A stretch of DNA of 64,000 bases. Origin: Mucilaginibacter sp. SG564 (lineage in GTDB: Bacteria; Bacteroidota; Bacteroidia; Sphingobacteriales; Sphingobacteriaceae). Below are positions 46,927 to 56,633 of the stretch, piece after piece; position 1 is the stretch's first letter; every line of letters begins with the position of its first letter. The stretch lies in NCBI RefSeq assembly GCF_013149275.1, contig NZ_JABGNA010000002.1, positions 310,001 to 374,000 of the forward strand, in the 5' to 3' direction. The notes under the pieces were generated by a model that saw only the letters and a list, made by a program, of their open reading frames with translations, made no database searches and was not told the origin of the DNA. Made by a program: the position numbers and the translations under genes.

Positions 46927-47301
46927 ATGGTAAAAAACAAAGTGTTAAATCAATCGGCCTATATTTCTGAGCTGGCCATACATGGCATACAGGAAAAAAA
47001 GGGGAATGATATTATAAGGTTAGACCTCCGGAATATATTGGGCTCGGTATCGGATTATTTTGTGATCTGCCATGCCGATTCATCAACACAGGTAAAAGCT
47101 ATTGCCAATAGTATTGAAGAAGAAATTTTTAAAGCTACGCAACAGGAACCCTGGCGCAAGGAGGGACTTGAATATGCAGAATGGATACTACTTGATTATG
47201 TGGACGTTGTAGTTCATGTTTTCAGAACCGACAAACGTGAGTTTTACGGCGTGGAAGATCTGTGGGGTGATGCCGAGATTAAATATTACAAAAGTGCTTA
47301 A
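46927..47301 (+). CDS. rsfS: Ribosome silencing factor
   Basis: A 124-aa protein of the RsfS/Iojap family, which binds L14 and blocks subunit joining when nutrients are scarce. DIIRLDLRNILGSVSDYFVICHADSS... covers residues about 27-52, WRKEGLEYAEWILLDYVDVVVHVF about 77-100, and YGVEDLWGDAEI near the end. The ATG at 46927 is preferred over the TTG one codon earlier. It is followed 94 bp later by ftsH, which has its own promoter. Confidence 0.94.
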   Translation: MVKNKVLNQSAYISELAIHGIQEKKGNDIIRLDLRNILGSVSDYFVICHADSSTQVKAIANSIEEEIFKATQQEPWRKEGLEYAEWILLDYVDVVVHVFRTDKREFYGVEDLWGDAEIKYYKSA

Positions 47302-47346
47302 ACTTTCGTCACAATTACCCTCCGGTTTGAGTCATGGTACTAAACC

Positions 47347-47379
47347 TTTGTAAATTTTAAATTATAGATTGTAAGTTTG
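47347..47379 (+). promoter_or_regulatory. ftsH promoter
   Basis: TTTG at 47347-47350, a 21-bp spacer, and TAAGTTTG at 47372-47379 match the Bacteroidetes -33/-7 consensus closely. The start codon is 16 bp downstream. Confidence 0.65.
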
Positions 47380-47395
47380 AGCTCGTAATAAAGAA

Positions 47396-49498
47396 ATGAA
47401 AGATATTAAAGATAATAAATCAGAAAGTCCGAAACCTATCAGGAAAATACTTAATAAAAAAACACCGCCTAAACCACCCAAGTTTAATATTATGTGGCTT
47501 TATGGCATTGTTATTTTAGCGTTTTTATTGGTGCCTACCCTTTTGAGCGGCGGTTCGGGTACCCCTACTACCTTTAAAGATGTGGAAGGCATGCTTAAGC
47601 AAAATGATGTTGAAAAACTGATAGCTTATAAAAGCGGCGACCTGGTAACAGCCGAAGTTTACATCAAAAAAGAAAGTTTAAACAAACCACAATATGCCAA
47701 AGCCGGCAAAGACCAGCGTTTGTTTAACACCACAAATAATGGCCCTCAATACACTTTTACCGATGCATCATACGAAAGCCTAAAGCAATCTGTAGCGAAT
47801 GCACAGAAAGACATGCCGGAGGATCAAAAAATAAATATTCAATACGAGCAAGGGCATGAGAGCTTTTTATCAAACTGGTTGGTACAAGGCGTTATCATGG
47901 TTATCCTGTTTGCTGGTGTATGGATATTTATTATGCGCCGCATGTCAGGTGGTTCAGGAGGCGGCCCGGGTGGTCAAATATTTAATATCGGCAAATCAAA
48001 AGCTACTCTTTTTGATAAAGAAGCACAGGTATCGGTAACATTTAATGATGTAGCCGGCCTCGAAGAAGCAAAGCAAGAGGTAATGGAAATTGTAGATTTC
48101 CTTAAAAACCCCAAAAAATACACTAACCTGGGTGGTAAAATACCCAAAGGAGCCCTGTTGGTAGGTTCACCAGGTACAGGTAAAACATTATTGGCCAAGG
48201 CCGTTGCCGGCGAAGCACAGGTTCCGTTCTTCTCGCTTTCAGGGTCTGATTTTGTGGAGATGTTTGTAGGTGTGGGTGCTTCACGTGTACGTGATTTATT
48301 CCGCCAGGCAAAAGATAAAGCTCCATGTATCATATTTATTGACGAGATTGATGCTATTGGCCGCGCCCGCGGTAAAAACAATATTGTTGGTGGTAATGAT
48401 GAACGCGAAAACACGCTGAACCAGTTATTGGTAGAGATGGATGGTTTCGGTACCGATTCGGGCATTATTATCCTTGCTGCAACCAACCGCCCTGATGTAT
48501 TGGATTCGGCGCTGTTACGCCCGGGCCGTTTCGACAGGCAGGTATCTATTGATAAGCCTGATTTGATCGGTCGAGAGCAGATCTTCAAAGTTCACCTGAA
48601 ACCTATCAAATTATCTGATGGCGTTGACGCGAAAAAATTATCGGCACAAACCCCAGGCTTTGCCGGTGCAGAAATAGCTAACGTTTGTAACGAAGCCGCT
48701 TTGATAGCCGCCCGTAAAAATAAAGAATCGGTTGATATGGCCGATTTCCAGGATGCTATTGATCGTGTTATCGGTGGTTTGGAAAAGAAAAACAAGATCA
48801 TATCGCCCGAAGAAAAACGCATTGTTGCTTACCACGAAGCTGGTCACGCTATTGCTGGCTGGTTCTTGGAACATGCCGACCCATTGGTTAAAGTATCTAT
48901 CGTTCCGCGTGGTGTGGCAGCATTGGGTTATGCTCAATATCTGCCAAAAGAGCAGTTTTTATACACTACCGAACAATTGCTTGATGAGATGAGCGTTTCG
49001 ATGGGTGGTCGTGTTGCCGAGGACATTGTTTTTGGCAGGATATCAACCGGCGCCCTAAGCGATCTGGAACGTATTACCAAACTGGCTTATGCCATGACCA
49101 AAATCTACGGTATGAACGGTAGTGTAGGTAATGTATCCTTCTACGACCCGCAAGGCGAATATCAGTTTAACAAGCCTTATTCTGATACTACTGCCGAGAT
49201 GATCGACAACGAAGTGCGTAAACTGGTTGACGAGGTTTATCAGAAAACCAAAGATTTGTTGAATAACAAACGCGATGGACTTGAAAAAATAGCTCAGAAA
49301 TTGTTAGAGAAAGAAGTACTGTTTCAATCAGATCTGGAAGAGATATTGGGTAAGCGGCCATTTGACGAACGTACCACTTACGATAAGTTTGTGAACGGCG
49401 AGGCTGCGCTAAACCCCGATGTGGATAACAATGCCATTCCGGATAACTTAACAAATCCGGAGCTTTCCAGAATTGACGGAGAAGATCCAAAGTTTTAA
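47396..49498 (+). CDS. ftsH: ATP-dependent zinc metalloprotease FtsH
   Basis: Hexameric membrane-bound AAA+ protease that degrades misfolded membrane proteins, 700 aa. Two membrane segments (about 33-51 and 161-180) bracket a periplasmic domain. Walker A GSPGTGKT is at 257-264, Walker [12 protein letters not shown] near 313-323, the second region of homology [11 protein letters not shown] near 374-384, and the zinc site [12 protein letters not shown] near 478-489. The C-terminus is acidic, ending GEDPKF. Flanked by rsfS upstream and a LUD-domain gene downstream, as is common in this phylum. A strong terminator follows. Confidence 0.97.
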
Positions 49499-49514
49499 TA
49501 TACATTAATCGTAT

Positions 49515-49550
49515 AAAGCCATCAGCTAAGCTGATGGCTTTGCTGTTTTT
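49515..49550 (+). terminator. Terminator of ftsH
   Basis: Perfect 12-bp stem AAAGCCATCAGC/GCTGATGGCTTT with a 3-nt loop and a trailing T5. It lies only 3 bp before the next start codon. Confidence 0.85.
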
Positions 49551-49553
49551 ACC

Positions 49554-50204
49554 ATGAGGGATATTACCACATCAAAAGAAAAACTGCTTAAAAAGATCCG
49601 CAAGGCTCTTCTGGAGAAAAGGGACAACCCCTACCCTCAATTGGAGGACCTGCCGCTTTATGCAGCCGCTGAGGAGATCCCGGAGGTAATGTTTGCCCAA
49701 CAGTTCACTACCGTTAACGGGCAGTTTGTTTTTTGCGAGGATGAAGTGCAGTTTATTGAAACCTTGCTTACCCTGGCCGAAGAGCGAAACTGGCGCAAAA
49801 TATATTGCTGGGAACCCGGCTTGCAGGAAATCCTTACCCGTTTTGAATACCCATTTTATGAAACCGACAAAGACTTTGAACAGGCCGACGTTGGTTTTAC
49901 CTTTTGCGAAGCCCTGATAGCCCGTAATGGAAGCATACTCCTGTCAAACGGCAACATGGCAGGCCGTCGCTTGAGCATTTATCCCCCAGTACACATTGTG
50001 TTGGCCTATACCTCCCAAATGGTGCTCGATCTTAAAGATGGCTTTAAGCTGATCAAAAAGAAGTATGATAACCAGCTGCCATCGATGATCAGTAATGTGA
50101 CCGGCCCAAGCCGCACCGCCGATATCGAAAAAACTCTCGTATTGGGCGCCCACGGCCCCAAAGAACTTTTCGTTTTTTTGCTGGATGACAGCAACTTATC
50201 TTAA
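49554..50204 (+). CDS. LUD domain-containing protein (LutC/YkgG-like)
   Basis: A 216-aa cytoplasmic protein with the LUD fold: VGFTFCEALIARNGSILLSNG near residues 105-125, SIYPPVHIVLAYTSQMVLDL near 140-159 and ISNVTGPSRTADIEKTLVLGAHGPKEL near 177-203, the typical LutC end. LutC works with LutA and LutB in lactate oxidation, but those are absent here. Its place behind ftsH recurs in other Bacteroidetes, so it may have a different role. A weak AAAATAATA/TATTATTTT hairpin overlaps its stop codon (50203-50234). Confidence 0.87.
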   Translation: MRDITTSKEKLLKKIRKALLEKRDNPYPQLEDLPLYAAAEEIPEVMFAQQFTTVNGQFVFCEDEVQFIETLLTLAEERNWRKIYCWEPGLQEILTRFEYPFYETDKDFEQADVGFTFCEALIARNGSILLSNGNMAGRRLSIYPPVHIVLAYTSQMVLDLKDGFKLIKKKYDNQLPSMISNVTGPSRTADIEKTLVLGAHGPKELFVFLLDDSNLS

Positions 50205-50406
50205 AATAATATTTTGCCCCTAAAGTATTATTTTGCGATTATAAATTTTATTGATAAGATCAACTACTTGCTTTAAATTTAACTTTCGTAAGGGATAGTA
50301 CATAAACAATGCTTTAATTTACTTTTCCTCTGTCGTTCTACCACCAAACACATAAATATAATAATATCGATAATAGCGTTTATCTTTACTGCCATCAGTA
50401 ATATCT

Positions 50407-51057
50407 ATGTTTTATTTATATTTCTTTTTTGAATTATTTGCATTTATAAGTTGCCTGTACGCTTATAAAAACCTAGATAGAAACTTTAAAATTTTTCTCC
50501 CGTTTCTCGCATTTGTTGTTGTTTATGAGTTTATAAATATCTTCTTTATGAAGCTAATTTTATTACATCATTCAAATGCCTGGTGCAATAATCTGGAGGG
50601 TGTTATCGAACTATTGGTATATGGGCAATTCATGGCATCCTTAGATGAGCGAAAAAAGTACAAAAAGAGGGTGTATATGGCCGTTGCCATTGGCCTGTTT
50701 ATAACTTTGATTGACATCTTTTTTATTCATAGTTTCTGGACTGTCGCTACCGTAGCCAGTGCATCACAAAGCATTATATTGGCTACCATGGCATTTGTAT
50801 ATATATATAACTTATTTAAACATTCGGACGAATATCCCTATTTGCTCTTTTTCCCGCCATTTTTAGCTGCCGTGGGATTATTGTTGTACTCATTGGCCAA
50901 TTATTTTTATTTCGCATCATTTGACAACCTATTGGTTAAAAACAATTATCATTTTTATTCGATCGCTCATTTAATCTGCGAAATGGCTTGTTTATTTATA
51001 TATGTATTTTTAGGCCTTGCGTTTTTATGCTTTACAAAAGTCAAAAAACTATCCTGA
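50407..51057 (+). CDS. Multi-pass membrane protein, 7TM-like (paralogue 1)
   Basis: A 216-aa protein with about seven hydrophobic segments and no family I can name. It is clearly paralogous to the protein at 51716-52381. Shared words are FFELFAFISCLYAYKNLDRN near the start, FLPFLAF, HHSNAWCNNLEGVIELLVYG near residues 53-72 and YKKRV near 82-86. The conserved His, Asn, Trp and Glu between helices two and three could form a ligand site. It lies 5' to a small soluble protein, the second copy, and a kinase/regulator pair, which suggests a membrane sensor. Confidence 0.75.
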   Translation: MFYLYFFFELFAFISCLYAYKNLDRNFKIFLPFLAFVVVYEFINIFFMKLILLHHSNAWCNNLEGVIELLVYGQFMASLDERKKYKKRVYMAVAIGLFITLIDIFFIHSFWTVATVASASQSIILATMAFVYIYNLFKHSDEYPYLLFFPPFLAAVGLLLYSLANYFYFASFDNLLVKNNYHFYSIAHLICEMACLFIYVFLGLAFLCFTKVKKLS

Positions 51058-51120
51058 TATACATTATTTTTCGCCTTATTTTGATTTATATCCGTATAAG
51101 GATAATTTCTAAAAAAAACC

Positions 51121-51128
51121 TATTTTTG
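51121..51128 (+). promoter_or_regulatory. Possible -7 element for the 7TM2-kinase operon
   Basis: TATTTTTG fits TAnnTTTG. It lies 156 bp upstream of the next start codon, leaving a long leader with a TATCC/GGATA hairpin nearby. The -33 element is not visible. Confidence 0.3.
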
Positions 51129-51284
51129 AGTAATCCGTATTATTTATGGATTTTGTACTGATCTTATTTACGTTTTTCACCAACCAACCTAAGCTGGCGT
51201 TTTCCTCGTATATTATACCCCCTATCAAATTCGGCTGTATTTTATTAAGGAAGAGACAGCTTAATTGAATAAAAACCACAAATA

Positions 51285-51650
51285 ATGGAACCTATCGATT
51301 TATCTATCGCCCAAAAAATGGTGGACCACTACGCTGCCACCCGAAAAAAACTGATTGACAAAGAACACAATATCAACGATACGCAGTCTGTCTGGATACC
51401 GCTTGATAAATTAAAATCCTTTATCAACAACCTACCCGAGCAGGCTACGGGAGTAAGAATTCATTTTGCCGCTTACGATCATAAAAACGAGCATTCGCCC
51501 AATCAAACTACAGCTATATTGATAGGCACCGTTGAAAATCATACTGAACATACCGATGCCATAGAAGATGGCGTTGGGCCATTGGGCACTGAAGATCCAA
51601 TGGGGCCTTTTAACAATGGCAGAACATGCCCTCCACTTTGCCCATCGTAA
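51285..51650 (+). CDS. Hypothetical soluble protein between the 7TM paralogues
   Basis: A 121-aa cytoplasmic protein I cannot assign to a named family. It opens with an amphipathic helix (IDLSIAQKMVDHYAATRKKL), contains a probable beta-sheet core with GVRIHFAAYDHKNEHSPNQT near residues 62-81 and AILIGTVENH, and ends in a Gly/Pro/Cys segment, NNGRTCPPLCPS. The two cysteines near the C-terminus could bind a metal. Proteins of this look occur elsewhere in Sphingobacteria as I recall; context ties it to the two membrane paralogues and the kinase. Confidence 0.75.
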   Translation: MEPIDLSIAQKMVDHYAATRKKLIDKEHNINDTQSVWIPLDKLKSFINNLPEQATGVRIHFAAYDHKNEHSPNQTTAILIGTVENHTEHTDAIEDGVGPLGTEDPMGPFNNGRTCPPLCPS

Positions 51651-51715
51651 GCAATCCTTTAAAATATTTTTGTAAGGCCATATTCGTCAAAAGGCAAATG
51701 CTTTAATGTAATCTT

Positions 51716-52381
51716 ATGCTTGATTATATCTATTTTTATTTTGAGCTTTTTGCGTTTTTTGTTTGTTTATACACCTACAAAAAGCTTGATCGTAACTTTA
51801 AGGTATTCCTTCCTTTTTTGGCGTTTATCGTAATTTATGAGTTTGCGAACCTTAAATATTGGACGCTATGGCACCATACCAATGCTTGGTGCAGCAATCT
51901 GGAAACAATTATTGAAATAGTTATTTACACCCGCTTTATAAGCGCTCTTGATACAAGAAGATCATACAAAAAAAGGGTAAATATTGTGCTTTTCATAATA
52001 GTCCTGTTTTCTTTTATAGACATGATCTTTATTCAGGGCTTTTTTATGCTAAACACCATTGCCATAGTACTTCAATACAGCATGCTTACTGTGTTGGTGT
52101 GCTTGTATTATTTTAAATTAATTAACAATGTTGATGAAAGCCTCGATATTATACGTCACCCGCCATTTTGGGCCACTGCGGGAATATTATTTTATACGCT
52201 TGCTTTTCTGTTTTATTACATAGCTTTCAGTTACATGGCTTACAAACAAAATTATAAGTTCTTTATATTGGCTCAGGTTATACCGAATATTGCTTGTCTT
52301 ATTTTATATTCGTTACTGTCTGTTGCATTTATATATCAGTATAAAAAAGCAAAATCTATTGCCGCTGTTATAAAAACATAG
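51716..52381 (+). CDS. Multi-pass membrane protein, 7TM-like (paralogue 2)
   Basis: A 221-aa homologue of the 50407-51057 product, with the same seven-segment layout and shared words YFELFAFFVCLYTYKKLDRN, HHTNAWCSNLETIIEIVIY and YKKRV. It lies 65 bp after the small soluble protein and 51 bp before the histidine kinase, on the same strand. Since that kinase has only one membrane helix and no sensing domain, this protein is the most likely partner that supplies the input signal. Confidence 0.75.
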   Translation: MLDYIYFYFELFAFFVCLYTYKKLDRNFKVFLPFLAFIVIYEFANLKYWTLWHHTNAWCSNLETIIEIVIYTRFISALDTRRSYKKRVNIVLFIIVLFSFIDMIFIQGFFMLNTIAIVLQYSMLTVLVCLYYFKLINNVDESLDIIRHPPFWATAGILFYTLAFLFYYIAFSYMAYKQNYKFFILAQVIPNIACLILYSLLSVAFIYQYKKAKSIAAVIKT

Positions 52382-52432
52382 TAACATCTTTTATCTATAT
52401 CCAAACCATTAATATGATCAGCCCATTCAAAT

Positions 52433-53263
52433 ATGCTGTTTAAGGATGAAGAAATCATTTTATTGATAATTGCAGGCACCGCCATAGTGATGCTGCTGGG
52501 GGTTTTTATCGTCAGCTTTTTGTTGCTATACCAACGCAAACAAAATAAAAATGTATTGGAAAAGGAGCAACTGAAATCATCCTTTCAACAGGAATTGCTG
52601 AAAACCCGCATGGAAATTCAGGAAGAAACGCTAAATCATATTAGTCGCGAGTTGCATGATAATATTACCCAGGTGCTATCATTTGTAAAACTTAACCTGG
52701 GCGTGTTGGGCAGAAACCTGGGCGAACATGAAAAGGCCCGGGTAAATGACAACCGCGAACTTATTGCCCAATCCATAAGTGATCTGCGAAACCTTTCCAA
52801 AAGTCTTAGTTTTGAACATATCAGTGTAATGGGCCTCATAAAAACGCTGGAAATAGAAACCGAACGTGTTAACAGAAGTGGTATCATTAACGTATCGTTA
52901 TTGGTTGATGGTGATTATTACACACTTGGCGAACAGCGGGAGCTGGTATTATTCAGGATCTTTCAGGAGGCCTTAAATAATGCCTTAAAATACGCGCAAG
53001 CCGATAACTTTAAAATGAGTTTGTATTATAAGGAGCAAATGTTTAATTTAACCATCGAAGATGACGGTGTTGGTTTTGAGCCTGAATTGCTTAAAGATAA
53101 GGGGGGCTCGGGTTTGCGTAACATTGTGAACAGGGCCGCCTTAATAGGAGCCGAAGCAACTATTAATAGTTCACCAGGCAATGGCTGCAGCATTAACCTT
53201 TCACTCAACCCCCTCATACAAGAAACTTATGTTAACGGAACCTATTCAAATAGCCCTGGTTGA
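52433..53263 (+). CDS. NarX/LiaS-type sensor histidine kinase without a sensing domain
   Basis: A 276-aa kinase. One membrane helix (about 8-33) is followed by a coiled linker. The HisKA_3 dimerisation domain has ISRELHDNITQVLSFVKLNL near 70-89, with His75 as the phosphorylation site. The HATPase domain (about 165-265) shows FQEALNNALKYA as N box and DDGVGFEPE as G1. There is no periplasmic or PAS domain, so input must come from another protein. It overlaps its response regulator by 35 bp, so the two are produced together. Confidence 0.92.
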   Translation: MLFKDEEIILLIIAGTAIVMLLGVFIVSFLLLYQRKQNKNVLEKEQLKSSFQQELLKTRMEIQEETLNHISRELHDNITQVLSFVKLNLGVLGRNLGEHEKARVNDNRELIAQSISDLRNLSKSLSFEHISVMGLIKTLEIETERVNRSGIINVSLLVDGDYYTLGEQRELVLFRIFQEALNNALKYAQADNFKMSLYYKEQMFNLTIEDDGVGFEPELLKDKGGSGLRNIVNRAALIGAEATINSSPGNGCSINLSLNPLIQETYVNGTYSNSPG

Positions 53264-53873
53264 TGATCATCGCCTTTTCAGAAGCGGCATTGCTTCTATG
53301 GTGGAGAGCTTTAACCGCTACAACATACTATTTGAAGCCGCGCATGGTAAAGAATTGGTTGACAAAATAGCTTCGGGGTTAGTTCCAGATATTGTTATTC
53401 TGGATATTAATATGCCGATAATGGACGGCATTTCAACCGCGCAATGGCTTAAAAAGTTCCAACCATCTATCCGTACTATTATCCTATCCATGTTTGAAGA
53501 CGCCGAAAAGGTACTCACCATGGTTAAAATGGGTGTAAAAGGGTATCTTCTTAAAGATGCTGAACCACATGAGTTTGAGGCTGCTTTGCTCAAAGTAACA
53601 GAAGGAGATCTTTACTATCCGGATTTTGTTACTAAGCATTTATTAAATAATTTCAATAACGATAAAACGGCCGTTGTAAAGTTAAATCCCCGGGAAATTG
53701 AATTTTTACGCTTAACCGGAACCGAACTCACCTATAAAGAAATTGCCGACACCATGTGCATCAGCGTGCGTACCGTTGATAGCTATCGCGATCAGCTTTT
53801 TGAAAAACTGGGCATTAAGAGCCGCGTTGGCCTGGTATTATACAGCATAAAAAACAAACTGATCGATTTGTGA
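53229..53873 (+). CDS. NarL/LuxR-type response regulator
   Basis: A 214-aa regulator. The receiver domain has acidic pocket VDDHR near 11-15, phosphorylated Asp59 in VILDINMPIMDG, and Lys in LLKDAEP near 107. The C-terminal LuxR helix-turn-helix (about 148-210) reads LNPREIEFLRL and ISVRTVDSYRDQLFEKLGI. The start is taken at ATG 53229, which gives a canonical receiver beginning. A longer frame from 53181 lies within the kinase gene. Cognate to the kinase just upstream. Targets may include the upstream membrane-protein genes. Confidence 0.93.
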   Translation: MLTEPIQIALVDDHRLFRSGIASMVESFNRYNILFEAAHGKELVDKIASGLVPDIVILDINMPIMDGISTAQWLKKFQPSIRTIILSMFEDAEKVLTMVKMGVKGYLLKDAEPHEFEAALLKVTEGDLYYPDFVTKHLLNNFNNDKTAVVKLNPREIEFLRLTGTELTYKEIADTMCISVRTVDSYRDQLFEKLGIKSRVGLVLYSIKNKLIDL

Positions 53874-53902
53874 TTTGCTAAAAATATTAGCAAATTTGTT
53901 AA

Positions 53903-54973
53903 ATGGAACAGGATGATAATACCGGCTTTTTTAAAGGTCGGGGAGCGCAGCTAAATACCCACAACAAATTTTTAAAGAATAAATATGTCGCCGAGCACAT
54001 CGAGGGGATCGACGAGCCTTTATTGGAAAATACCGCCACACAGCTTTTTGAGGAAACACCCAAAAAGATAGTAAGTGAATCTAATAGTCCAGATCTGAGC
54101 CACATGTATTCTATAAATCCTTACCAGGGTTGCGAACACGGTTGCATTTATTGTTATGCCCGCAACAGTCATGAATATTATGGTTTTAGCGCTGGGCTTG
54201 ATTTTGAACGCAAGATCATCATCAAACCCAATGCCCCTGAGCTTTTGGAGCAGTATTTTAACAAGAAAAACTATCGGCCGGTATCTATCATGCTTTCGGG
54301 CAATACCGATTGTTACCAGCCTGTAGAACGTCGCTTAAAGATCACCCGTGGACTACTGGAGGTTTTTTTGAAGTATAAAAACCCGGTAAGCATCATCACC
54401 AAAAACAATGTGATCCTGCGCGATCTGGACATTCTTACCGAACTAGCCTCTATGAAACTGGTGCATGTAAACGTTTCTATTACCTCATTGAATGAGCAGC
54501 TGCGTCAAAAACTGGAACCGCGGACCGTGACGGCTACCGGAAGGCTGGCCGTGGTACAGAAACTATCCGAAAAAGGGGTCCCTGTGAGGGTAATGGCAGC
54601 TCCTATTATCCCAGGACTTAACAGTAACGAAGTACCCAGCATTATCAAAGCCGCTGCCGACCGGGGCGCGTTGGCCGCAGGATTTACCATTGTACGACTC
54701 AATGGCAGTATAGCCGAGATATTCAGCGACTGGATATACAAGGCTTTTCCTGATCGTGCAGAGAAAGTGCTCAACATGATACGCTCATGCCATGACGACA
54801 AATTAAATGATAGCGATTTTGGCCGCCGTATGAGCGGCGAAGGCAAAATAGCACAATCCATCCACCAGATGTTCCGGATGGCCTGCAATCGCTTTATGGC
54901 GGGTCGGGAGATGCCCGAATACGACTATACCTTATTTGTGCCCAGGAAAGGTAAACAGACGAGTATGTTTTAG
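53903..54973 (+). CDS. PA0069-family radical SAM protein (SplB-like)
   Basis: A 356-aa radical SAM enzyme. The 4Fe-4S cluster motif is INPYQGCEHGCIYCYARN with Cys77, Cys81 and Cys84. It is followed by SIMLSGNTDCYQPVERRLKI near 132-151 and by PIIPGLNSNEVPSI near 231-244. It resembles spore photoproduct lyase in sequence and belongs to the PA0069 group, common in non-sporulating bacteria, with unknown substrate, probably DNA or RNA repair. It converges on the DUF2809 gene with a 4-bp overlap. Confidence 0.9.
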   Translation: MEQDDNTGFFKGRGAQLNTHNKFLKNKYVAEHIEGIDEPLLENTATQLFEETPKKIVSESNSPDLSHMYSINPYQGCEHGCIYCYARNSHEYYGFSAGLDFERKIIIKPNAPELLEQYFNKKNYRPVSIMLSGNTDCYQPVERRLKITRGLLEVFLKYKNPVSIITKNNVILRDLDILTELASMKLVHVNVSITSLNEQLRQKLEPRTVTATGRLAVVQKLSEKGVPVRVMAAPIIPGLNSNEVPSIIKAAADRGALAAGFTIVRLNGSIAEIFSDWIYKAFPDRAEKVLNMIRSCHDDKLNDSDFGRRMSGEGKIAQSIHQMFRMACNRFMAGREMPEYDYTLFVPRKGKQTSMF

Positions 54974-55344
54974 GTTGTACTGTGCTGTTGAATTAACCTA
55001 TCAATCCAAACACCAAAAACAATTCCAATAGTATAACAGAGCAGATCGCTCCATAAAAATCCTTCGCCCAAAACCAGGCGACCAAACAGCGTGTGCCTTA
55101 AATTATTTATCCAGGGCGCTTTATACAATTGACTAAATTCTATGATATAGCAAAACAACAGACTGGTTATAACAATGAGCTTAACAGGCTTATCAATAAA
55201 CAGAAACCGCATAATAAAGTAAACCATCAAGGCCCAAAGGATATCGCCTATAAATAATGGAATAAAAGAAAAATGACGGGATAGCAGGCCTGAGCTAATG
55301 GCGATAACAATGAGACAGGCATATGTTACCCTTAACCTGTCCAT
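54970..55344 (-). CDS. DUF2809 family membrane protein
   Basis: A small protein of 124 aa with four hydrophobic segments (about 7-22, 25-47, 53-68 and 95-115) and the family words GLLSRHFSFIPLFIGDILWA near the start, FCYIIEFSQLYKAPWINNLR in the middle and GFLWSDLLCYTIGI near the end. The function of DUF2809 is unknown. Its start overlaps the DinB stop by one base (TAATG), so it is co-translated with the DinB-like gene. It overlaps the radical SAM gene tail to tail. Confidence 0.8.
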   Translation of the reverse strand: MDRLRVTYACLIVIAISSGLLSRHFSFIPLFIGDILWALMVYFIMRFLFIDKPVKLIVITSLLFCYIIEFSQLYKAPWINNLRHTLFGRLVLGEGFLWSDLLCYTIGIVFGVWIDRLIQQHSTT

Positions 55345-55790
55345 TAATTATCCAGTAACCTTCGGTGGTAATTAACCTGCCCCAGGTGATATGACAAATG
55401 AGTAGCCAGATGCGTTAAGAAATATCCTGTACTTACTTTTCCATCAGACACATCCTGAGGATATTCATCAGCCATTTGCTCCTCATTTAGTTTATCAAGC
55501 GTTCCAGCTATCATCCGTGAAGTCTCATCTATACGCTTCAAAAGTTCGGCTCTTGGAATAGGACCTGATGAAAACTCCAACGGCCGATCGCGGATATAAC
55601 CCGTTTTGCCCAGTTCTGCCCCGATATAAGTATTCAAATTGCCTATCAGATGCAAGCAAAGATTACCGGCCGTATTGGCAATTTGTTTATCAATAATCCA
55701 GATATTTTGCTCCTGCTGATATAACTCCAACTCTGTCTTAAGTTTTTCCAGATCGCGCAGAAATAGTTTTTTCAGGATAGATAGTAACAT
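55344..55790 (-). CDS. DinB-like (DUF1572) protein
   Basis: This 148-aa four-helix-bundle protein has the LCLHLIGNLNTYIGAELG word near residues 45-62 and TGYFLTHLATHLSYHLGQVNYHRRLL near 121-146. The conserved histidines of the helices (H47, H131, H135-type positions) bind a metal in this family, which includes bacillithiol-transferases and damage-inducible proteins. The actual reaction is unknown. First gene of a pair with DUF2809. It has no lexA-type box that I can see. Confidence 0.83.
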   Translation of the reverse strand: MLLSILKKLFLRDLEKLKTELELYQQEQNIWIIDKQIANTAGNLCLHLIGNLNTYIGAELGKTGYIRDRPLEFSSGPIPRAELLKRIDETSRMIAGTLDKLNEEQMADEYPQDVSDGKVSTGYFLTHLATHLSYHLGQVNYHRRLLDN

Positions 55791-55837
55791 GGATAATTGT
55801 TTATTGGCTATGGCAAGATAGTTAATTATTCAGGTAA

Positions 55838-55870
55838 CAAAAAAGAGCGCCTGATTGGGGCGCCCTTTTT
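55838..55870 (-). terminator. Terminator of the zinc-ribbon gene
   Basis: AAAAAAGAGCGCC and GGGCGCCCTTTTT pair around a 6-nt loop. It follows the stop of the zinc-ribbon gene on the minus strand and has U-rich ends in both directions. Confidence 0.75.
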
Positions 55871-55889
55871 AATATTTATAAACTAACGT

Positions 55890-56633
55890 TTATGCTTCTT
55901 CTGCTTCCAGAGCCATTTGCTCATCAACAAGGATACGTCCGCAATGCTCACAAACAATAATCTTTTTACGCTGACGAATGTCAGACTGACGTTGAGGCGG
56001 GATCTGGTTAAAACAACCTGAACATGAATCGCGCTGGATAGTTACCACAGCTAAACCATTTTTTGCGTTTTGACGCAGGCGGTTATAGGCGGTTAATAAA
56101 CGCTCTTCGATATTTCCGGTAGCTTTTTCTGCCTGGGCAACCAGTTCTGTCTCTTCTTTTTCAGTTTCGGCTGTGATGGTACCTAGTTCTTCTTTTTTAG
56201 CATCAAGATCACTCTTGCGCAAATCCAGATCGGCCAGTGCTTTTTCATATATCTGGGTTTTTGAAGTGATCTCAAAACCATACTCGCGTATTTTTTTCTC
56301 GCTTACCTGAATATCTAATCCTTGTATCTCAATTTCTTTTGATATGGCATCATACTCACGGTTGTTCTTAACTTCGTTAAGTTGCGCTTCGTATTTTTTG
56401 ATATTGGCCTGAGCTTCTTTGATCAGGTTTTTGCGGGTTACAATCTCATCTTCTACATCATCCAGCTCGGCTTTGATCTTTTGAATGCGGGTTTCAAGAC
56501 CAGCAACATCATCTTCCAGATCTGCAACCTCCATTGGCAGTTCACCTCTTACCTGGCGAATTCTATCAATTTTGGTGTGGATGGTTTGTAGTTCGTATAA
56601 AGCTTTAAGCTTTTGTTCTACGGTTTGTTCCAT
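55890..56633 (-). CDS. C4-type zinc ribbon domain protein
   Basis: A 247-aa protein with a long antiparallel coiled coil (about 5-185, heptad-rich with many Glu and Lys) followed by a zinc ribbon with two CxxC knuckles, CSGCFNQIPPQ near 201-211 and CEHCGRIL near 229-236. It belongs to the DUF164/CT398 group, thought to act in RNA or nucleic-acid binding or as a chaperone; no function is settled. The start overlaps the Nif3 gene's stop (TAATG), a pairing conserved across many bacteria. Confidence 0.88.
   Translation of the reverse strand: MEQTVEQKLKALYELQTIHTKIDRIRQVRGELPMEVADLEDDVAGLETRIQKIKAELDDVEDEIVTRKNLIKEAQANIKKYEAQLNEVKNNREYDAISKEIEIQGLDIQVSEKKIREYGFEITSKTQIYEKALADLDLRKSDLDAKKEELGTITAETEKEETELVAQAEKATGNIEERLLTAYNRLRQNAKNGLAVVTIQRDSCSGCFNQIPPQRQSDIRQRKKIIVCEHCGRILVDEQMALEAEEA

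Follow-up and report, generated by a model that had tools for sequence, protein, structure and literature searches.

How does a histidine kinase that carries no sensor domain receive its signal? The question is raised by a cassette of five genes in Mucilaginibacter sp. SG564 (Sphingobacteriaceae), at positions 50407-53873 of a 64,000-nucleotide stretch of contig NZ_JABGNA010000002.1 (the window; contig positions 310,001 to 374,000). The kinase of this cassette, with 276 amino acids (aa), has a single transmembrane (TM) segment near its N-terminus, HisKA_3 from residue 68 and no extracytoplasmic sensor domain. From our analyses of gene order and sequence conservation, we conclude that the cassette is probably a split receptor-kinase, in which a seven-helix membrane protein (7TM) encoded just upstream feeds the kinase by contact between helices. 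Short sensor-less kinases of this type have no visible input, and if this reading is true, their receptors are the adjacent 7TMs.

A preliminary description of the window had proposed the layout 7TM-A, small protein, 7TM-B, kinase and regulator, and all five open reading frames (ORFs) are present in this order on the forward strand:

50407..51057, + strand: 7TM-A, 216 aa, the additional seven-helix receptor-like protein (ORF; kin to 7TM-B)
51285..51650, + strand: small leaderless partner protein, 121 aa, with a predicted alpha/beta core (ORF; family alignments; model)
51609..51647, + strand: conserved C-terminal tail FNNGRTCPPLCPS of the small protein (conservation of P116; enrichment of tail classes)
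51716..52381, + strand: 7TM-B, the receptor-like seven-helix protein adjoining the kinase, 221 aa (model; loop charges)
52433..53263, + strand: histidine kinase of 276 aa without a sensor domain; one TM helix followed by HisKA_3 and HATPase_c (Pfam)
52433..52585, + strand: putative N-terminal docking-helix segment of the kinase (helix-profile match at E 9.7e-19, the segment itself being among the profile seeds)
53229..53873, + strand: NarL-type response regulator, Response_reg and GerE (Pfam; phospho-acceptor D59)

The kinase gene starts 51 nucleotides (nt) after the end of 7TM-B and is overlapped over 35 nt by the regulator gene, of which the longest ORF begins at 53181. Both proteins match their Pfam families (HisKA_3 and HATPase_c; Response_reg and GerE) above cut-off, confirming the earlier account of a one-helix, sensor-less kinase overlapped by a NarL-type regulator, and D59 is unchanged across 18 cassette regulators. 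The two membrane proteins around the small protein are indeed paralogous, with 44-45% identity and the word HH.NAWC.NLE in common. A gap of 227 nt separates the 7TM-A gene from the downstream small gene, the product of which ends in NNGRTCPPLCPS.

Short kinases and the adjacent seven-helix protein

Among the seven HisKA_3 kinases of the window's genome, the three short ones (frames of 269-281 aa) all lie behind a 7TM and the four long ones (666-1048 aa) do not. The same contrast was found across 20 genomes of our own choice (the window's, 13 others with 7TMs and 6 lacking them), which gave 120 HisKA_3 matches. With a short kinase defined as a frame of up to 330 aa and the place behind a 7TM as within 900 nt, 41 of the 43 short kinases lie behind a 7TM, versus 0 of the 77 longer ones (Fisher p 4e-30, calculated over paralogues and relatives that are not independent).

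The only membrane helix of the kinase is a conserved segment typical of places just behind 7TMs. A first profile of this N-terminal helix, built from 155 short HisKA_3 kinases, also matches kinases of other classes behind 7TMs, namely PAS-HisKA_3 kinases (loci L162, L160 and L165), a PAS-HisKA kinase (L158), HisKA kinases (L074 and L030) and, at E 8e-5, the PAS-HisKA-REC kinase of L164, with weaker matches in L156 and L157. The best match of this profile away from any 7TM has an E of 0.034. A second profile, made of 38 helices, was applied to the same 20 genomes, where a 7TM directly precedes 41 of 41 matches at E<=8.2e-5 and 42 of 53 at E<=0.01; many of its seeds come from these genomes, and the figures thus favour sensitivity, not specificity. 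We also searched 28 genomes of other families, which were chosen for having 7TMs and contributed no seeds. Here, every one of the 33 matches at E<=1e-6 lies just behind a 7TM, as do 51 of the 54 at E<=1e-4 and 62 of the 67 at E<=1e-3, and a helix match follows 61 of the 95 7TMs. Three of the five exceptions at 1e-3 were inspected: L222 holds an unrecognised 7TM and a small ORF with the tail GLCPPGTC, and L223 and L224 hold no small-7TM pair.

Because short HisKA_3 kinases are found almost exclusively behind a 7TM, and because of the conserved helix, we regard the 7TM as the probable sensor. In the mechanism that we propose, the 7TM, with its N-terminus outside and its C-terminus inside, would be the sensing subunit and would touch the kinase at its only membrane helix, which would serve as a dedicated docking helix, and would thereby set kinase activity. 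The HisKA_3 kinase would in turn phosphorylate the NarL-type regulator encoded by the overlapping gene. The small protein, translated just ahead of the 7TM, would be its obligate partner, and its folded core and Pro/Cys tail most likely bind and tune the 7TM-kinase complex. The diverged second 7TM of the window could share the same kinase or compete for it. The part of the preliminary description in which the 7TM feeds the sensor-less kinase is supported by the contrast between short and long kinases and by the helix shared with other kinase classes; this support does not extend to its other parts, which made the small protein a modulator, took the duplication as a sign of two ligands and had the proteins in physical contact.

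Recurrence of the gene set in the Bacteroidota

The recurrent unit consists of small protein, 7TM, sensor-less kinase and regulator, and 7TM-A is the window's extra member. In the window's genome (6.8 Mb), four 7TM matches lie in three rows, which are the window itself, L005, with a small protein of 171 aa (tail CPGSTGCP) followed by 7TM, kinase and regulator, and L036, with a small ORF, 7TM, kinase and regulator, the small ORF being known only by its position and NPSPPA tail. These two further rows, and the repetition of the order in other genomes, indicate that the cassette is more than a chance arrangement. Both 7TM-A and 7TM-B belong to a Mucilaginibacter clade of 10 7TMs, inside which the branching order is weakly supported, and the complete order 7TM-small-7TM-kinase-regulator was met once more, in Chryseobacterium sp. 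Bi04 (L137). Tandem 7TMs behind a single small protein recur (L077, L158, L159 and L170, among others), as does their mirror image, two small-protein genes ahead of one 7TM gene (L092, L176, L180 and L195).

In 151 genomes of the window's family, the 7TM profile matches 142 places in 72 genomes and the small-protein profile 115 places in 67 genomes, with 62 genomes matched by both; up to 8 7TM paralogues occur per genome. A small-protein match lies within 1.2 kb upstream of 101 of the 142 7TMs, at a median gap of 50 nt, and 105 of the 115 small-protein matches have a 7TM downstream. We fetched 40 loci with a missing partner (L036-L075), covering 30 of the 41 7TMs without a small match and all 10 small matches without a 7TM; inspected by eye, most of them do contain a partner that had gone unrecognised, its tail being CPxxC, NPSPP or PPP.

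The regulator alignment was used to scan the genomes of 84,980 species. Of the best 80 loci, 75 have an adjoining kinase and 69 of these a 7TM before it; L084, outside this automated count, has a 7TM too. A small ORF lies upstream in 67 of the 69, in 53 by profile and in 14 by position only. These loci come from Mucilaginibacter, Pedobacter, Chitinophaga, Puia, Chryseobacterium, Flavobacterium, Polaribacter, Fulvivirga and Dyadobacter, and from metagenome-assembled genomes of Bacteroidales or unclassified Bacteroidota. In a sample of the phylum, a 7TM match at E<=1e-5 was found in at least 88 of 392 genomes and 47 of 178 genera, including 8 genomes outside the window's class, which is a lower bound since few candidates per genome were scored. 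The 7TM searches covered Bacteroidota genomes and viral contigs, and the viral contigs, queried with 7TM-B, gave no relative.

The preliminary description had called for a survey of co-occurrence, and the families do keep company, contrary to the case that it named against its own reading, in which the 7TM or small genes would mostly lack a kinase nearby: besides the small-protein figures given above, the 198 7TM genes over all loci are mostly followed directly by a kinase (164) and in 14 cases by another 7TM. The kinase stands directly behind the 7TM in 29 of 29 cases at the 7TM-fetched loci L007-L035 and in 31 of 39 at the loci chosen for a missing partner; the 69 of 72 at L076-L155 are no test, as these loci were chosen by their regulator. 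Among the 194 7TM genes away from edges, a small ORF lies upstream of 149 by profile and of 34 by position, the latter kind of count being weak because any ORF of at least 70 aa in place was accepted and the rule wrongly takes the upstream LUD-domain gene in the case of 7TM-A.

The seven-helix protein and its small partner

The model of 7TM-B, based on 58 sequences, has a predicted local distance difference test score (pLDDT) of 94.8 and a predicted template modelling score (pTM) of 0.90. Basic residues number 2.77, 3.24, 1.89 and 3.03 per sequence in loops 1, 3 and 5 and the C-terminus, and 0.06, 1.08, 0.64 and 1.22 on the other side, a distribution that indicates an outer N-terminus and an inner C-terminus. 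The top conserved positions are F151, W152 and G156 at the cytoplasmic start of helix 6, N56 and N61 together with E42 on the outer side, and Y198; we infer a pocket on the outer side and a coupling patch on the inner side. In comparisons with VIA, the model resembles GPR34 (Z 13.1, root-mean-square deviation 3.8, 211 residues aligned), a designed fold like that of G-protein-coupled receptors (GPCRs; Z 13.0, 3.4, 196) and MAR rhodopsin (Z 11.8, 4.0, 195), where a Z near 13 for helical bundles may reflect just the common helical arrangement. The Foldseek neighbours in the PDB are GPCRs and rhodopsins as well (probability up to 0.99), and with a best E of 0.15 this match is not significant. S-component chains, fold relatives of the 5TMR kinases, are absent from the best 50 rows of Foldseek and VIA.

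Neither family belongs to a recognised one by our searches: at E<=0.1, any single Pfam or NCBIfam family matches at most 2 of 39 small proteins and at most 1 of 58 7TMs, and among PDB sequences the 7TM profile found none and the small-protein profile three at chance level (E 0.83-0.91). The PADLOC defence models gave nothing for both 7TMs, the small protein and the kinase, and only a match at E 0.0084 (13.8 bits) for the regulator. Isolated matches were rejected, namely the geobacillin-26 family on 7TM-A (one member only, E 0.0013, 18.6 bits versus a cut-off of 40), glyco_rpt_poly on one 7TM only, BSAP5b (E 0.00024) and DUF2714 on one small protein only each, and RNA polymerase subunit L on the window's small protein (E 0.038, 14 bits versus a cut-off of 134). 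An AgrB-like enzyme, suggested by the Cys tail and by HH..C in the window's 7TMs, was likewise dismissed, these residues being outside the best conserved ones of the 198 7TMs.

The stop-to-stop frame of the window's small protein is only 125 aa long and therefore hides no signal peptide. Its model (pLDDT 79.7) shows an alpha/beta core and a disordered tail with values under 50, and the fold has no match in the PDB (Foldseek best E 0.95; VIA best Z 2.5). Within the tail, P116 is invariant in a family alignment of 30 rows and nearly so in a second one. The tail classes CPxC, PP or NGxxP are found in 165 of 175 small proteins versus 59 of the 424 remaining ORFs at the loci, and CPxC alone in 88 of 175 versus 4 of 424; small ORFs recognised by position only, and hence outside the choice made by the profile, carry a tail class in 22 of 28 cases. 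Long variants (288-350 aa), in which the N-terminus carries a hydrophobic segment or a lipobox, were seen in L033, L080, L081, L085 and L106, that of L033 apparently having, by eye, two domain copies and one tail.

Alternative explanations, genomic setting and known systems

Several points weigh against a split receptor-kinase. Two short HisKA_3 kinases have neither a recognised 7TM nor a docking-helix match, and HisKA-REC-REC hybrids behind 7TMs (L048, L218 and L219) reach the helix profile only at E 0.1-0.6. As many as 20 of the 198 7TM genes are followed by neither a kinase nor a second 7TM, and at the 7TM-fetched loci from the phylum (L156-L195) a kinase stands directly behind only 33 of 55, with another 7TM behind 12. 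Both genome sets (20 and 28) were hand-picked, mostly for carrying 7TMs, and conservation within one operon cannot reveal which subunit senses. Judged by sequence, about one third of the small proteins would be periplasmic and the window's cytoplasmic, and a single role fails to explain both. Small-7TM pairs that lack a kinase (L058, L061, L063, L069 and L071) add to these points, and would also suit a different arrangement, in which the 7TM and its small partner form an enzyme, a transporter or an export unit, the expression of which is the target of the two-component pair. We consider such a target very improbable, since it leaves both the conserved helix and the position of 41 of 43 short versus 0 of 77 long kinases unexplained; furthermore, no conserved catalytic-looking residue set was seen in the 7TM, and the preliminary description had left room for a known enzyme or transporter family, of which Pfam and NCBIfam gave none above cut-off.

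The small protein might itself be the signal or its precursor, with an exported or presented tail as the ligand of the 7TM, in a layout like that of comQXPA, where a pre-peptide is followed by a membrane receptor, a HisKA_3-type kinase and a NarL-type regulator. The small gene immediately precedes the gene of the receptor; within an otherwise divergent protein, the tail shows the highest conservation, and the model leaves it disordered; and by a crude test 44 of the 147 profile-recognised small proteins have an N-terminal hydrophobic segment (29) or lipobox (15) that would export them. The remaining 103, including the window's, lack such a signal, and the tail is conserved, whereas pheromones are usually variable. 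The neighbours scanned include no transporter, peptidase or isoprenyl transferase, and overall we find this explanation improbable. Mere historical linkage, in which the four genes are kept together but share no mechanism, is hardly credible. Vertical inheritance at fixed sites, as in the window and L076, does account for part of the linkage, and the small-protein, 7TM and kinase distances correlate moderately (Spearman 0.29-0.41, exceeding 300 permutations, with species relatedness still included), but the cassette is conserved across families and classes, several paralogous cassettes occupy different sites in one genome, and the kinase class is swapped behind related 7TMs. An inhibitor resembling LiaF, which would keep the kinase off until envelope stress and need no specific ligand, deserves more serious thought, although we hold it to be unlikely. 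PMC8534201 and PMC3543457 describe accessory membrane proteins that serve sensor-less kinases and frequently repress them, and LiaFSR likewise combines such a protein with a HisKA_3-type kinase and a NarL-type regulator. No sequence relation was seen, however, and up to 8 paralogues per genome and deep divergence better suit many specific inputs than one stress. Taken further, the split receptor-kinase could be one of many modular GPCR-like receptors throughout the Bacteroidota, in which a tail-activated or tail-gated 7TM would plug into a docking helix carrying various kinase classes, with many signals per genome; this extension we regard as rather unlikely.

The cassette is bordered upstream by a LUD-domain gene and downstream by a radical SAM gene of the PA0069 family. 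Among the matches listed, the best named relative of the regulator is that of Mucilaginibacter sp. SP1R1 (93% identity), and its locus L076 has the order ftsH-like, LUD, cassette, radical SAM, as in the window (47396-54973; flanks judged by eye from sequences), with a cassette without 7TM-A. The LUD and radical SAM flanks recur in L016, where no regulator lies between the kinase and the radical SAM gene. An Rfam search over 47000-56000 gave nothing at the gathering threshold, and a Bacteroidetes-type promoter pattern has 4 matches in the window versus 3.77 expected, none near the cassette starts. A near-palindrome CCGTGTTTAAACGG followed by GTGAAATAACGG, a possible regulator site, lies upstream of the small gene in the near relatives L007, L078 and L079; this footprint is confined to those three and absent from the window. 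Three cassettes from different genera have a caspase-domain (Peptidase_C14) gene near the small gene and on the opposite strand (L217:4277-5269, L021:1-492 and L144:1408-2253, the last adjoined by a trypsin-like gene), out of 179 loci with a 7TM record and later loci. Genes for M43 (pappalysin-like) metallopeptidases, probable lipoproteins by eye, flank Chryseobacterium cassettes (L112:5381-6391, L115:1308-2306 and L115:7085-8089). Neither the caspase genes nor the M43 proteases were accepted as a cassette regulon.

The preliminary description knew of no system with this layout, which agrees with our search of the open-access literature, where no published description of the cassette was found. 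LiaRS is a pair of the HisKA_3/NarL type. The intramembrane-sensing histidine kinases with accessory membrane proteins reviewed in PMC8534201, LiaF-LiaS-LiaR and BceAB-BceS, resemble the cassette in a kinase without sensing domain, in a separate membrane protein as the likely signal receiver and in contact via membrane helices, the latter being proposed for the cassette. The cassette differs in its unrelated seven-helix receptor, in one kinase helix instead of two, in its extra small protein, in its occurrence in Bacteroidota and not Firmicutes, and in related helices that front several kinase classes. A LiaF-family accessory protein is absent from the Pfam matches of the window's 7TMs and of the 58 7TMs, and the kinase scores 68.7 bits with NCBIfam Strep_LiaS, a streptococcal model with a cut-off of 450. 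The regulator of comQXPA is also of NarL type. The comQXPA system (PMC4008528) likewise has a small protein, membrane receptor, kinase and regulator in one row. In the cassette, receptor and kinase are separate, and export of the small protein is only predicted, in part of the family; a ComQ isoprenyl transferase is not among the window's neighbours (LUD-domain, radical SAM) or the partly scanned neighbours of other loci.

Receptors of the BtsS/LytS type (5TMR-LYT; PMC10653868, PMC11109136) have seven helices and an outer N-terminus and feed a kinase, to which, unlike the cassette 7TM, they are fused. Their family PF07694 has no Pfam match in the 58 7TMs, and hhalign showed no profile similarity, with a probability of 0.2% against a partner of two E. 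coli proteins only. The 7TMR-DISM (PF07695) is another bacterial seven-helix receptor domain, with members in the window's genome that, unlike the cassette 7TM, are fused within one large protein; it has no Pfam match in the 58 7TMs and shows no profile similarity to them, at an hhalign probability of 3.4% with 12 members. GPCRs and microbial rhodopsins share the seven-helix arrangement, but the 7TM lacks a conserved retinal lysine in helix 7, where (columns 184-204) no column has Lys in more than 14 of the 198 sequences. The 7TM and the small protein are thus new component families, and a sensor-less kinase with an accessory membrane protein is a known mechanism class. If our reading is true, the cassette would provide a new receptor family, small-protein family and docking helix for a phylum of importance in soil, water and animals.

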